A program made the position numbers and the translations under genes. 64,000 nt of DNA from Candidatus Zixiibacteriota bacterium (GTDB lineage: Bacteria > Zixibacteria > MSB-5A5 > WJJR01 > JAJRUJ01): positions 1-64,000 of the forward strand of contig JAGVQM010000039.1 of assembly GCA_020051695.1 (NCBI GenBank), written 5' to 3'. The first letter of the stretch is position 1. The number at the start of each line of letters is the position of its first letter. Of the stretch, positions 58,577-63,817 are shown piece by piece. Under the pieces are notes generated by a model, which was not told the origin of the DNA, ran no database searches, and worked only from the letters and a program-made list of their open reading frames with translations.

Positions 58577-60868
58577 CTACGTCTGGAACAAATACTGCAA
58601 TTTCAGGAAAAACTGCCGTTTGGACAGGGTGGTCATGGTGTCGATGTGGTTCGGCCCGACCTGGTCGAAACGGTCATAATCATACGTTGCCCCGAGATAA
58701 AATGTCGAAAACGGGTTAATCCGGTAGGTCAGCAGCGGATCAACGTTCCATTGCCGGCTGAAATTATTATATTCAGTGACCAGCCGGAGGGAGAACTCGC
58801 GGTTGACCTGGCAGCCCAGCCGGGTCCGCACGATATACCCGCAATAATACATTTTGTCGGTATCAATATCACGGCTTTCGGTGTAGATGATGCTCGGTTC
58901 CACCAAAACACGCCCCAGCAGGCGCAAGTCCGCCCACGTTTGCAGCGTCAATTCGCGGCCCATGGCCAGCGCCGACCGGGCGATTTGATGGCCGAACACG
59001 ACATTACCACCCAGATCGACATCGGGCATCGGCGTAGCCCAGACCTCCCCTGCAGCCGACCAGATATCGGCGAAATCGACACCGGCGAACCGCTCGCCCC
59101 GCGTCTCGACCTCGGTCCAAAACCCCGATTGCGCAAAACGGAAATTCCCGTTCAACGTGGCGGTCAGCCACTCCTCTTTCCTCAACCCATTGAAGTCCCA
59201 GATCCGCCCGCAGGAGAAGCCGGGAGTCAGCCGGGTTAGAATCGTCTTGGTCGGTCGAATGTAGTATTGAAAATCCCCCAATGTCCACCGGTCGCCGTTG
59301 CGGGGTTGGTATCCATTGTCGGCATGAAACGTAGGCGTTCGCTGATAGGCGCGAACGTAGGCGTACACTTCGCGCGATTGGCAGGCGAAACCCGCCAGCC
59401 CGCCGGTACCGGAGAACGATTCGCCGTCAAATGCAGCGGTATACTTGCCGTTGTCGAATGTTGTATCGGGCAGGTACTGACTTAATATGTCGTCGTCCGG
59501 TTCTGCGGTATGCGTGGCCATAAACTGGCCTTTGAGCGACAAACTCTTGGTCAGTCGCATTTGTCCGTCCACGCTGGCCAGTGTCCCAATCCCGCCGCCT
59601 TCAAACCGCCGGTCCGTGAGCACGCCCCGGAGATGATTATCCTCGCCGAAGGAGTGCCGGAACGCGGCCATATTGGTGTAACTTCTGCCCGCGGGCACGT
59701 ACGCTGATCGTTCCTCAAAGGGAATGATCATCGGGCTGTGTTCGTCGTGGGCCGACAACGCCGCGACACTGGTCGTGCCGAACTTTGCCGAAGATTTAAG
59801 GGCAAAATCCGGATCGTTGATCGAACGGGTGTACACCGCGTTGAAGTTCGTGCGAAACAGGTCCATGCCTTCCTGAAAAAACGGTCGCTTTTCTTCATAA
59901 AAAAGCGCGAAGGTCGTGTTGACATCGATCTGCGAGGCGTCGGCCTCAATCTGACTGAAATCCGGGTTGTAACTGCCCTCCACGATAATGTCCGAGGATA
60001 CGGCATATTTGCCGCCCAGCGACAGGTCGCCGAAGATGTCGCCGTTGGCAAATGAGGTATCGGGGTCACCATAATTGACGATTTCACCCGATTGGTGGGC
60101 GACAAAACTGGGCAGGACCTCGATGCCCCGGCCGGGCGCGACATTCTCGATACCGTATACAGTACCCCACTGACAGGGCCAGCAGGGATCGTTCTGATCG
60201 TACGCCGCCCAGGACATCGAATAGTGGACTTCCCGCTGATGATGACGGTAGAAGTCGAATTTCCACTCCTGCAGGGGTTTGTTGTCAAAGCGCAAACAGG
60301 AGAACGGGATGGCCAGTTCTACCTGGTACCCGGAATCGGTGACCGTCCCCGATGACTTGAACACCAGATCGAAGTTGCTGTCTTCGCCGTAACCGGGTGA
60401 CCAGAGAGCATCGTATTGAATGCCATAGGGGTTGATGTTAATAATGTACGCTCGTGAAGCATCGCCATATGTATCAAAGAAAAAGCCGATATTATCGTCG
60501 GAGAAAATCCGTTCGCGTTCGCACATCGATGCCCGCACGGTGCCCGGGTCGGCGTAACAGACTGCCGACAGGTACAGGTTTTCATCGTCGTAAGTTACAA
60601 AGACCTTTGTCTCCACACATGGGCGTACTTCCTCGCCCGGCGAGTGCTCGGTAAAATGAGTCGCCGGCTGCGCGCCCTGCCAGCCGGGGTCGGACAAATT
60701 GCCGTCGATGTCGATCTGCCCCGGCGCACGGGTTACCTGTAATGTGGGGTGAAATATGGGTGTAAAACCATTGTCATGTTCATCAGCGTGGGTATTAGTC
60801 GCCGCACATATCCCGGCCAGTACCGCCGCACACCACAAAAACCCAAACCGCCGTCTCCCCGAAAACAT
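58577..60868 (-). CDS. DUF5916 outer-membrane-type protein with CBM9-like domain
   Basis: A 763-aa exported protein: signal peptide (about 1-28), a family-9 carbohydrate-binding-like domain (about 40-225; IDGNLSDPGWQGAQPATHFTEHSPGE, TKVFVTYDDENLYLSAVCY), then a long region (about 240-763) of alternating strands that resembles a beta-barrel (DUF5916), ending LKLQYLFQT. The family is widespread in FCB-group bacteria and unassigned in function. Transcribed alone on the minus strand, about 270 bases downstream of the haem-porin gene. Confidence 0.85.
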   Translation of the reverse strand: MFSGRRRFGFLWCAAVLAGICAATNTHADEHDNGFTPIFHPTLQVTRAPGQIDIDGNLSDPGWQGAQPATHFTEHSPGEEVRPCVETKVFVTYDDENLYLSAVCYADPGTVRASMCERERIFSDDNIGFFFDTYGDASRAYIININPYGIQYDALWSPGYGEDSNFDLVFKSSGTVTDSGYQVELAIPFSCLRFDNKPLQEWKFDFYRHHQREVHYSMSWAAYDQNDPCWPCQWGTVYGIENVAPGRGIEVLPSFVAHQSGEIVNYGDPDTSFANGDIFGDLSLGGKYAVSSDIIVEGSYNPDFSQIEADASQIDVNTTFALFYEEKRPFFQEGMDLFRTNFNAVYTRSINDPDFALKSSAKFGTTSVAALSAHDEHSPMIIPFEERSAYVPAGRSYTNMAAFRHSFGEDNHLRGVLTDRRFEGGGIGTLASVDGQMRLTKSLSLKGQFMATHTAEPDDDILSQYLPDTTFDNGKYTAAFDGESFSGTGGLAGFACQSREVYAYVRAYQRTPTFHADNGYQPRNGDRWTLGDFQYYIRPTKTILTRLTPGFSCGRIWDFNGLRKEEWLTATLNGNFRFAQSGFWTEVETRGERFAGVDFADIWSAAGEVWATPMPDVDLGGNVVFGHQIARSALAMGRELTLQTWADLRLLGRVLVEPSIIYTESRDIDTDKMYYCGYIVRTRLGCQVNREFSLRLVTEYNNFSRQWNVDPLLTYRINPFSTFYLGATYDYDRFDQVGPNHIDTMTTLSKRQFFLKLQYLFQT

Positions 60869-61051: not shown

Positions 61052-61084
61052 AATCGTCCCGGCGGATGTCCAGCCGGGACGATT
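61052..61084 (-). terminator. Perfect 12-bp hairpin downstream of the haem-porin gene
   Basis: AATCGTCCCGGC and its exact complement flank a 9-base loop about 57 bases past the haem-porin stop. The downstream minus-strand sequence is not T-rich (TTGCTTCC), so it may be a Rho-independent terminator with a weak tract or a transcript-end stabiliser. Confidence 0.55.
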
Positions 61085-61140: not shown

Positions 61141-62328
61141 TTAAAACGCCACGACAAACCCGGTGATAGCCCGGTTTTCCTTATGTTCCAGATCGCGCGT
61201 GAACTCGACGAAATACCGCAGGTTGGTGCGGAAAACGTATCCCGCGTGGCCGGTCAGCGTCCGGTAGTTGAGGTCTTCCAGGTCGGATTCGATCCAGTTG
61301 AATAATCCTACAGCATACCAGGCGCTGCGGTCCCCGTGCGGCAGAAACACCACCTCGCCCAGCGCTCCCCGCGTTTTGATTTCCCCCACGGTATTGGAAT
61401 CACCGGCGAACAGCGGATCACTGTCCCGCCGTTCGAGGTACTGGATGTTTACTTCCAGCGGGCCGCCGGCCACTGTGAGGTCCGGGCCGAAATATTTGAC
61501 CTCGTTGGCCGCGGAATTTCCTTCCTTGCCGTAGTAGCCGAACCCGCCGATCCGCACATTTTCATTGATTGTCTGCGACAGGCGGCCGACGAACGATTTG
61601 TATTTATCGTTGTCGAAGACATGATGTTCATCGGCGGCGCCGATGCCGTTGCCGTTGGTGATTTCGGCCATCACATCGGTTCCGGTGGGGAAACCGTACG
61701 TCAGCATGATTCCCCTGTCGTACGTCAGATTGATGCGGGATTGACCAACTCTGGCTTTGTAAACCGGGTAATCCTCATATGTCATCCGTAGTTCCCGTTT
61801 AAACAACGGGTCGGAAATCTGAAATTGCCCGAAATACACGTCCAGTTCCGAATCAAACAGGTTGTTGAACATGATGTAGGCATCTTCGATCCCCGCGACT
61901 TCACCGCGTTCACTCAGGAAAAAATAGAAGTAGTAGGCGAGGTTGTCGGTCAACGACCCGCCGGAGAGCAATTTCAGGTTGTACGGCGTGGACAGATCTA
62001 TTTCGCGGTCGGTTTCACTTTGGTACTTAATGAATCCTTCCAGCCGGCAGGCCAGCGGCAGATCACGAATGAGGCTCAGGTTCTTATCGCCGGTATCCAC
62101 GAAATACCTCGGCGCTTCTTTGTCCTTCAGTACAAAGCCGTTGCCGGCGAATTCATCCCCGTACTCCTTGAGTTTGGGGAAGGGGGCATGGCAGGTCGTG
62201 CAGGTCATGTTGTACTTGCGGGCGAAGGCCGGTACTGCCCGACTGTCCTGGTACTGTCCCACCAGGATGACCCCGGCAAAAAACACGACAAGGATGACGG
62301 CAAACAGTGAGCGTTTCTGTGGCCGCAT
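61141..62328 (-). CDS. Haem-bearing porin-like outer-membrane protein
   Basis: A 395-aa exported protein with a signal peptide, one c-type haem motif CTTCH (about residue 43-47, in YNMTCTTCHAPFPKLKEYG) and, from about 75 on, alternating beta strands typical of a 14-18-strand outer-membrane barrel, ending FVVAF with terminal Phe. The haem site near the N-terminus should lie on the periplasmic side. AGGAGGG lies 6 bases before ATG 62328, spanning the end of the cytochrome gene, so the two are translationally coupled. Probably an electron-conducting porin. Confidence 0.82.
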   Translation of the reverse strand: MRPQKRSLFAVILVVFFAGVILVGQYQDSRAVPAFARKYNMTCTTCHAPFPKLKEYGDEFAGNGFVLKDKEAPRYFVDTGDKNLSLIRDLPLACRLEGFIKYQSETDREIDLSTPYNLKLLSGGSLTDNLAYYFYFFLSERGEVAGIEDAYIMFNNLFDSELDVYFGQFQISDPLFKRELRMTYEDYPVYKARVGQSRINLTYDRGIMLTYGFPTGTDVMAEITNGNGIGAADEHHVFDNDKYKSFVGRLSQTINENVRIGGFGYYGKEGNSAANEVKYFGPDLTVAGGPLEVNIQYLERRDSDPLFAGDSNTVGEIKTRGALGEVVFLPHGDRSAWYAVGLFNWIESDLEDLNYRTLTGHAGYVFRTNLRYFVEFTRDLEHKENRAITGFVVAF

Positions 62329-62338
62329 ATTTTCCCTC

Positions 62339-63739
62339 CTAGGGCAGGATGTTGACAATCGTCGAATGAGTGTTCACCACGATAATTTCGGTTTCCTCTT
62401 CCGGGACATGCAGGAAATCGCCCACCGATTTAACCAGCCGCCGATAGTTGAGTGTTGCGGTCACGGCCAGCGGGCCGGGAGGCAGGTTGTCCGGCAAATT
62501 GAACGTATATGTCTCCATTTTTGTCTCTCGCGGTCCCAGCCGATAATCAACGCCGAGCGAGGCGGTATTCCATTGCTGGATGGTCATCCGCCCCTGCGGA
62601 TCGAAGTACGGCATGCGGAAGATGCGGTCTCCCGGGGGGACCGCATCACGCGCCACGCCGGGAAAGTCGGGTTGTCCGAGGGCAATGCCCATGTCCTGAT
62701 AGGCGAGGTCTTCGCTGCCGATGGTGTATTGCTCGCCGTCAAAACCCTTCGGATTGACCTTTAGGTGGTGTACGCCGCCGGCGGCGTCCGTCGCCTCCAC
62801 ATGGGCCCAGACAATCCGGTCTTCCACCGAGCCGCTGGGGAATTTATGGCCGGTTTTCTGGTTGAACAGCGCCAGCGTGAATTTGACCGTCTCGCCCGGT
62901 TCTGCTTCAATAATGTCCGGGTGAATCCGCAGTTCAATCGTCCCGCGGACTTTGCCGGGATCGTGCGCGCCGTGGAACAGGTGTTGGGCGGCGTCCGCGT
63001 AATGTGCGCCCATTTCGGCAGTCTGCCCCGGGGCATACGTCATGTGGCAATCATGGCAGCGGACGCCCTCTTTGGCATAGGGGCCTTCCGACCACTCCAA
63101 ATGCGTCGATTTGACCCAGACGTCGTATGGGCTTTTCTCATTGTGGCACGTGCCGCAAAATTCGGCCGTGCTGAGGAATGCCGATTTCGCGGTTTCATGT
63201 TCGGGCGAGGCGAGGTTTTCCCGTGGCCCGTACTTGATATTACCCGGTGAGGTAATCCAGTTGAAGTTATACGGCGTGTCCCCGGCGAATCCAGTGACTG
63301 TATGGCAGACCTCGCACGAAACCGATTCATTGGCCCGGCTGTTTTCCGCAGGGTGCGGCGGCGGGACGTCCCCGGCCAGAAATGATATCGGTGCATGGCA
63401 GCCGTTGCAGCCGGCTTTGACCCCGGCGACTTTCTCGTCTTTTTCCGCATGCGGCACCGCCAGCTTGAAGTATTCAATTTCATCCCAATGGTGGGTGTAA
63501 CACTGCGACATCATGGCCTGTGTCCACTGCCGGTAAATGTCGACATGGCAGGATGTCCCGCAAAAACCCGGGGTTTCGTAATCATCATATGACCGAGTGC
63601 CTAGGGCCGCATCGCCGGCGGGCGGCGATTGCGCCATAGCAACCGCGGCCAACAGCAGGACCAACCCTAGCACTGACAACGACAACTTCGTGGGCACCCG
63701 CGCCCCTCCCGCTCCCGGTGTGCATTGCGTCTGTTCCAT
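62339..63739 (-). CDS. Multihaem c-type cytochrome (c554-like) with beta-sandwich domain
   Basis: A 466-aa exported cytochrome with a signal sequence (about 15-38). Four CxxCH haem sites are visible (CNGCH, CEVCH, CGTCH, CHDCH) plus an atypical CxxxCH (FCGTSCH) at the first position, so up to five haems, arranged like the cytochrome c554 family. The C-terminal half (about 265-460) is a beta-sandwich with the EAEPGETVKFTLALFN and KTGHKFPSG motifs; its His may be a distal ligand. GGGAGGG lies 5 bases before ATG 63739; an ATG at 63742 is closer. Encoded directly before the haem-porin. Confidence 0.85.
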   Translation of the reverse strand: MEQTQCTPGAGGARVPTKLSLSVLGLVLLLAAVAMAQSPPAGDAALGTRSYDDYETPGFCGTSCHVDIYRQWTQAMMSQCYTHHWDEIEYFKLAVPHAEKDEKVAGVKAGCNGCHAPISFLAGDVPPPHPAENSRANESVSCEVCHTVTGFAGDTPYNFNWITSPGNIKYGPRENLASPEHETAKSAFLSTAEFCGTCHNEKSPYDVWVKSTHLEWSEGPYAKEGVRCHDCHMTYAPGQTAEMGAHYADAAQHLFHGAHDPGKVRGTIELRIHPDIIEAEPGETVKFTLALFNQKTGHKFPSGSVEDRIVWAHVEATDAAGGVHHLKVNPKGFDGEQYTIGSEDLAYQDMGIALGQPDFPGVARDAVPPGDRIFRMPYFDPQGRMTIQQWNTASLGVDYRLGPRETKMETYTFNLPDNLPPGPLAVTATLNYRRLVKSVGDFLHVPEEETEIIVVNTHSTIVNILP

Positions 63740-63788: not shown

Positions 63789-63817
63789 AATATGTTAAAA
63801 ATTGGGGGATTTGTCAA
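63789..63817 (-). promoter_or_regulatory. Near-consensus sigma-70 promoter of the cytochrome operon
   Basis: On the minus strand TTGACA (63817-63812) is separated by exactly 17 bases from CATATT (63794-63789), about 45 bases upstream of the start codon. -35 is perfect and -10 matches at four of six positions, so expression should be strong. Confidence 0.75.

Follow-up and report, generated by a model that had tools for sequence, protein, structure and literature searches.

A Cyc2-like fused cytochrome-porin paired with an ExtKL-type pentahaem cytochrome: a possible two-protein outer-membrane redox port in Candidatus Zixiibacteriota and Ignavibacteria

A Cyc2-like fused cytochrome-porin and a pentahaem c-type cytochrome related to ExtKL were found side by side in a Candidatus Zixiibacteriota bacterium. 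Close relatives in two lineages near-always keep the two genes together, which suggests that the cytochrome is a dedicated periplasmic partner for the pore. Both components are of known kinds; what appears to be new is how strictly the Cyc2-like port is coupled to a pentahaem partner of ExtKL type. No description of such a pairing was found in the literature searched, which did not extend to supplements, most subscription papers or bioRxiv. We propose that the two proteins may form an outer-membrane redox port, in which a Cyc2-type plug works with a pentahaem partner and inward flow is favoured, and we rate the chances of this reading as about even.

Gene pair and barrel protein

The window, which is the whole stretch of DNA analysed, comprises 64,000 nt of contig JAGVQM010000039.1 (assembly GCA_020051695.1). 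The reading frames confirmed both genes where a sequence-only reading of this DNA had placed them, on the minus strand, and all window features given below are on this strand. The cytochrome gene comes first (62339..63739, 466 aa), with its start at ATG 63739 or 63742 and its stop at 62341-62339. The barrel gene follows 10 nt after this stop (61141..62328, 395 aa); its ATG at 62328 suffices, and the TTG start at 62358 in the open reading frame list is unneeded. At the junction (62323..62345), the TAG stop overlaps an AGGAGG ribosome site and the ATG lies 10 nt past the stop. The translational coupling proposed earlier was borne out as a tight arrangement, although the genes themselves do not overlap. 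A near-consensus promoter had also been proposed, and the sigma-70-like string TTGACA-17-CATATT is present at 63789..63817, but such sites occur in the region at chance frequency (2 found vs 1.9 expected). An inverted repeat, perfect over 9 bp and longer when its flanks are included, lies 3' of the barrel gene (61055..61081) and probably marks the end of the transcript unit. This hairpin stands between the pair and the next gene downstream on the same strand (58577-60868), which encodes a CBM9-like and DUF5916 protein, probably a large outer-membrane protein.

As described by Keffer et al. 2021 (PMC8406198), Cyc2 proteins have a single CXXCH with AXPXFAR[Q/K][T/Y] upstream and PXL downstream, a minimum length of 365 aa and a porin of 16 strands that resembles OprO/OprP. 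The 395-aa window protein carries AVPAFARKY-NMT-CTTCH-APF-PKL at residues 31-53 (62170..62238), so that both the upstream motif, as AVPAFARKY, and the downstream motif, as PKL, are present. The haem motif CTTCH (62188-62202) is the one CxxCH near the N-terminus that had been noticed before, and occupies residues 43-47. This single N-terminal CXXCH is invariant in 46/46 sequences of alignment A1. Of the close relatives, 47 have a complete haem region; 46 of these keep PXFAR[Q/K][T/Y] and 39 the full three-part pattern. Chance was rejected as a source of the haem motifs, since only 4/20000 shuffles of the barrel composition gave at least one CxxCH and 0/20000 shuffles of the cytochrome composition gave at least four.

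The predicted structure was also that of an OprO/OprP-like porin, and the earlier beta-barrel prediction holds. AlphaFold2 on 46 sequences gave exactly 16 strands at residues 92-394 (61147..62055), with a mean pLDDT of 73.9 and a pTM of 0.74; the pLDDT of the haem part (residues 24-77) was mostly below 50. Foldseek matched the model to general 16-strand porins. A second aligner placed OprO and OprP at the top (4rjw and 2o4v; Z 24.9, rmsd 2.8-2.9 over 292-295 residues), in a close ranking where another 47 of the listed entries came within 2.5 Z units, and the nearest folds also include a Comamonas anion-selective porin. In the model and the alignment, a long loop joins strands 5 and 6 (residues 171-202, 61723..61818). 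Mean conservation at the start of this loop (residues 166-180) was 0.89, equal to that of the haem part; position and conservation together suggest that the loop may be a substrate-shaping constriction. By every testable criterion of sequence and predicted fold the barrel protein is Cyc2-like, with Fe(II) oxidation as a possible function.

The sequence-only reading had contrasted the pair with MtrCAB-type conduits and their haem-free barrels. That contrast overlooks Cyc2, a fused cytochrome-porin whose motif the barrel matches; a haem fused to a barrel is an already-known arrangement, and Cyc2 homologues from these two lineages have been reported before. An MtrB-type conduit was rejected as the identity of the pair: the barrel has 16 strands, one haem site and no Pfam MtrB_PioB match, the cytochrome has five sites where MtrAB, MtoAB and PioAB have a decahaem protein, and no search of the pair gave a significant match to MtrCAB, MtoAB or PioAB components. 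Strong MtrB_PioB matches (E <1e-90) occur in 3/132 genomes of the phylum, none of which is a pair carrier.

The single haem also bears on how electrons could cross the membrane. The sequence-only reading had them cross the outer membrane by means of these two proteins only, which can be read as a continuous haem chain, and a haem in the barrel protein next to a multihaem neighbour speaks for such a chain. Nevertheless, the barrel protein has one haem, on its N-terminal side, and one periplasmic-side haem cannot span the membrane. Moreover, the modelled 16-strand barrel is too narrow to sheathe a multihaem protein in the way that MtrB does, which has 26 strands according to PMC8406198. We consider the chain extremely improbable. 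The broader idea was right in that the two genes make up a conserved unit, and this unit probably provides an electron route between the outside and the periplasm. In the Cyc2 model presented in PMC8406198, a dissolved donor goes into the pore.

Single-sequence PDB searches with either protein of the pair and profile searches with the barrel protein gave nothing useful. A plasmid search with the barrel protein gave one weak named relative, a Methylocystis plasmid protein with the Cyc2 motif, which served only as a Cyc2-motif comparison. The match (36% over 81 aa) covers the N-terminal haem part only, and this restriction fits the pattern described for Cyc2, whose homology is reported in PMC5566968 to be concentrated there. 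On the Methylocystis plasmid, this protein is annotated as hypothetical and its gene is followed by three c-type cytochrome genes (L114:3923-7693).

Pentahaem cytochrome

The cytochrome consists of a signal peptide (recognised by eye), a haem domain at about residues 50-260 and an Ig-like C-terminal domain at about residues 266-466. The up to five haems claimed earlier correspond to four CxxCH sites and one CX3CH site. Site 1 is the CX3CH (CGTSCH, residues 60-65, 63545..63562), followed by CNGCH (site 2, residues 111-115, 63395..63409), CEVCH (site 3, residues 142-146, 63302..63316), CGTCH (site 4, residues 195-199, 63143..63157) and CHDCH (site 5, residues 228-232, 63044..63058). The cysteines and the histidine of site 1 are invariant in 42/42 untruncated relatives, and its spacing is CX3CH in 40 of the 42 untruncated members of alignment A2 and CXXCH in the other two (L009 and L035). 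A CX3CH that is conserved and sometimes replaced by CXXCH indicates a real haem site, hence five sites in all. In addition, six histidines outside the motifs (83, 97, 181, 253, 259 and 298) are invariant in 43/43 aligned cytochromes, and we infer that they would provide enough sixth ligands for five haems.

Pfam gave only generic multihaem matches for the cytochrome. The best NCBIfam model was ExtKL (NF040886), at 40.6 bits against a curated cut-off of 250, and this model was matched by 43/43 aligned cytochromes at E 0.001 or better. The frame runs without an internal stop and thus lacks the in-frame TGA for selenocysteine of ExtKL. AlphaFold2 on 43 sequences gave a haem domain and an Ig-like domain at a mean pLDDT of 75.8, with the five models ranging from 75.8 to 57.0. 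The best solved fold was 5ze8, the c552 of Thermochromatium tepidum (Foldseek 1.4e-16; Z 19.0, rmsd 3.8 over 302 residues, 22% identity), and other structural matches concerned mainly the Ig-like domain. The profile search also led to 5ze8 (E 1.9e-9), followed by 8e5g at 0.028, which we take to be the archaeal cytochrome nanowire AvECN. Matches to NrfA, NrfH and TorC were short and far below cut-offs, and these identities were rejected; a viral structure library gave weak matches only. With its five c-haem sites, the Ig-like domain after them and a predicted c552 fold, the cytochrome is, on sequence and model, a member of the ExtKL / T. tepidum c552 pentahaem family (PHC) and is not ExtKL proper.

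A paper on cable bacteria places its own PHCs together with ExtKL, Gsu2801 and, on structural grounds, c552, and relates them to AvECN (PMC11976967). This proposed relationship would allow the pentahaem protein, instead of diffusing as a carrier, to polymerise or stack on the Cyc2-like port and so form a haem chain across the periplasm. This is a very long shot; if true, it would be a minimal two-gene wire that joins the inner membrane to a port with one haem in the outer membrane.

The same family allows the pentahaem protein to be an enzyme, for example an oxyanion reductase, to which the porin feeds substrate while the barrel haem is auxiliary or a gate. The cable-bacteria PHCs are classed as potentially catalytic in PMC11976967, where pentacoordinate haems are proposed for them, and the nearest barrel folds include anion porins (OprO, OprP and the Comamonas porin). 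Furthermore, in Geobacter the gene of ExtKL lies near that of ExtI, a porin lacking haem, and loss of this porin hampers the reduction of selenite and tellurite, according to PMC5877670. On the other hand, the six invariant histidines are available as sixth ligands for all five haems, no catalytic residue pattern was identified in the cytochrome, and an enzyme would leave the kept Cyc2 haem signature of the barrel unexplained. This role for the cytochrome therefore seems improbable.

Pairing across genomes

The co-occurrence check proposed in the sequence-only reading was carried out in 132 genomes of the window's phylum (relatives titled Candidatus Zixiibacteriota) and in 197 evenly drawn genomes of the class of locus L008 (Ignavibacteria), and the pair proved to be conserved. 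A close barrel was present in 23/132 genomes of the phylum, all 23 of which also had a close cytochrome. In the Ignavibacteria sample the barrel was present in 46/197 genomes and the cytochrome in 45 of these 46, while the cytochrome alone occurred in none. The cytochrome gene lies immediately upstream on the same strand in 23/23 cases in the phylum and 44/45 in Ignavibacteria, together 67/68. The exceptions, both in the Ignavibacteria sample, are G285, with no close cytochrome, and G280, where another gene stands between the two.

The 31 genomes behind loci L007-L037 partly overlap both samples, and the cytochrome was found in 29 of them. One of the two misses is a contig-edge fragment and the other is Stygiobacter electus, with a broken barrel remnant; this remnant (L033:5001-5933) lacks the haem part, and a search of that genome gave no pentahaem cytochrome. 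After removal of duplicates, the order and strand were the same in 40/40 loci with both genes in full, and the intergenic gap was 30 nt or less, or a short overlap, in 35 of these 40. L007, titled Calditrichaeota, has the same match coordinates as G057 of the window's phylum, so that such a label should not count as a further phylum. The distance matrices of the two partners were correlated (r 0.69 over 41 loci; 0/2000 permutations as high), a value given little weight because shared ancestry alone can produce such a correlation.

In the window's phylum, the cytochrome occurs without the barrel in 7/30 cytochrome genomes, which indicates that it has uses of its own and counts against the proposed port. 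These genomes are G124, G098, G059, G060, G053, G054 and G061 (loci L080-L084 and L086 for six of them), and the G059 copy has an internal stop. Five CxxCH are present in the cytochrome copies of L082 and L084 and also in the second one of G057 (L085).

The barrel side was followed by a DNA scan for the Cyc2 core motif, which matched in 37/132 genomes of the phylum, whereas the reversed control matched in none. The other Cyc2-motif barrels of the phylum adjoin other haem partners, namely COX4-cytochrome c, Rieske with cytochrome b, or CCP/MauG. At L127:7682-9771, a Cyc2-motif barrel comes directly after a gene that Pfam identifies as a COX4_pro-cytochrome c fusion, and the order is similar at L128:6626-8714; hexahaem and monohaem genes run in the same direction at both loci. 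Downstream of the barrel gene at L133:5848-13664, the encoded proteins are a large oxidoreductase-like one, a Rieske protein, cytochrome b and a cytochrome with eight haems, an arrangement that would suit a barrel connected to a bc-type complex. In a third lineage with the Cyc2 motif (FARKYGFNCNMCH), there is an upstream dihaem gene (L129:4647-6990, L130:5824-8021, L131:5967-8358 and L138:6366-8789), which is CCP/MauG by Pfam in L129 and L130, with a similar order in L131 and L138. Such varied partners fit a modular view with a common port and a lineage-specific partner, and the periplasmic carriers of Cyc2 pathways are described as interchangeable in PMC7029218.

Redox port, direction of flow and known systems

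In the proposed port, the barrel would be a small 16-strand pore of the anion-porin type, and a plug carrying one haem would sit at its periplasmic mouth. The redox substrate, in dissolved form, would enter the narrow pore and swap an electron with the plug haem. The pentahaem protein, as a dedicated periplasmic partner of ExtKL/c552 type, would then act as the electron relay that connects the plug with the respiratory chain. At the respiratory end, the window genome may use a cbb3-type oxidase near an NrfD-type membrane subunit. There, a CcoN-CcoO fusion (cbb3-type) is encoded near an NrfD-family gene and a c-type cytochrome (L139:125-9522, G000:C36), and the latter two are possibly alternative complex III. 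The favoured direction would be inward, from a donor such as Fe(II).

Inward flow is favoured because the chemistry of the Cyc2 family is known, with Fe(II) oxidised by the characterised proteins (PMC8406198), and because barrel genomes are associated with oxidases. COX1 was over the cut-off in 19/23 barrel genomes against 58/109 others (Fisher p 0.01, uncorrected for relatedness). The four barrel genomes without COX1 count against an inward port; three of these four are 81-88% complete.

The same port could also run outward, with a low-potential pentahaem protein pushing electrons via the Cyc2-like haem to a dissolved acceptor in the pore, such as chelated Fe(III), humics or oxyanions. The relatives of the cytochrome point this way: every aligned cytochrome matches the ExtKL model, albeit far below the cut-off for the window protein, and ExtI/ExtKL, tied to selenite and tellurite reduction, rises with Fe(III) as reported in PMC5877670. 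The c552 relative is called low-potential in the title of its paper, as given in a reference list, as against +208 mV for Cyc2 of strain PV-1 (PMC8406198). Moreover, Cyc2-like genes are noted in Fe(III)-reducing Ignavibacteriaceae in PMC6344600. Set against this are the Fe(II)-oxidising activity of characterised Cyc2 proteins and the enrichment of haem-copper oxidases in barrel genomes, and we judge outward flow to be a serious but rather unlikely reading.

In general, the protein that partners Cyc2 in the periplasm differs from case to case and often has yet to be named, while here one Cyc2-like lineage is tied to one pentahaem partner. Because the pair is fixed, with the same gene order in nearly all pair-bearing genomes, the step from plug to carrier can be tested with two defined proteins. 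The pair also unites two families, one familiar from Fe(II) oxidation and the other from the reduction of metals and metalloids, so that the direction of flow, and the use of Cyc2 as an iron-oxidation marker in these bacteria, become concrete questions.

Among known systems, Cyc2 / Cyt572 shares with the window barrel the one N-terminal CXXCH within AXPXFAR[Q/K][T/Y]...PXL, the 16-strand OprO/OprP-like porin of at least 365 aa and homology that is strongest in the haem domain. The window barrel differs in its two-gene unit with an ExtKL-type pentahaem cytochrome and in its hosts, which are Zixiibacteriota and Ignavibacteria-type bacteria. ExtI and ExtKL of Geobacter sulfurreducens likewise place a sequence-related pentahaem cytochrome near a porin, annotated as phosphate-selective; unlike the window barrel, ExtI has no haem motif, and ExtKL, which is encoded in the large ext cluster as two annotated genes, is a selenoprotein. 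The c552 of T. tepidum (5ze8) and the PHC family of cable bacteria have the same fold, with a haem domain and an Ig-like domain, whereas haem site 1 is CX3CH in most members of the window family, and no porin was seen next to the cable-bacteria members. Finally, MtrCAB, MtoAB and PioAB resemble the pair in having a porin gene beside a gene for a periplasmic multihaem cytochrome, but in these systems a 26-strand haem-free barrel surrounds a decahaem protein.
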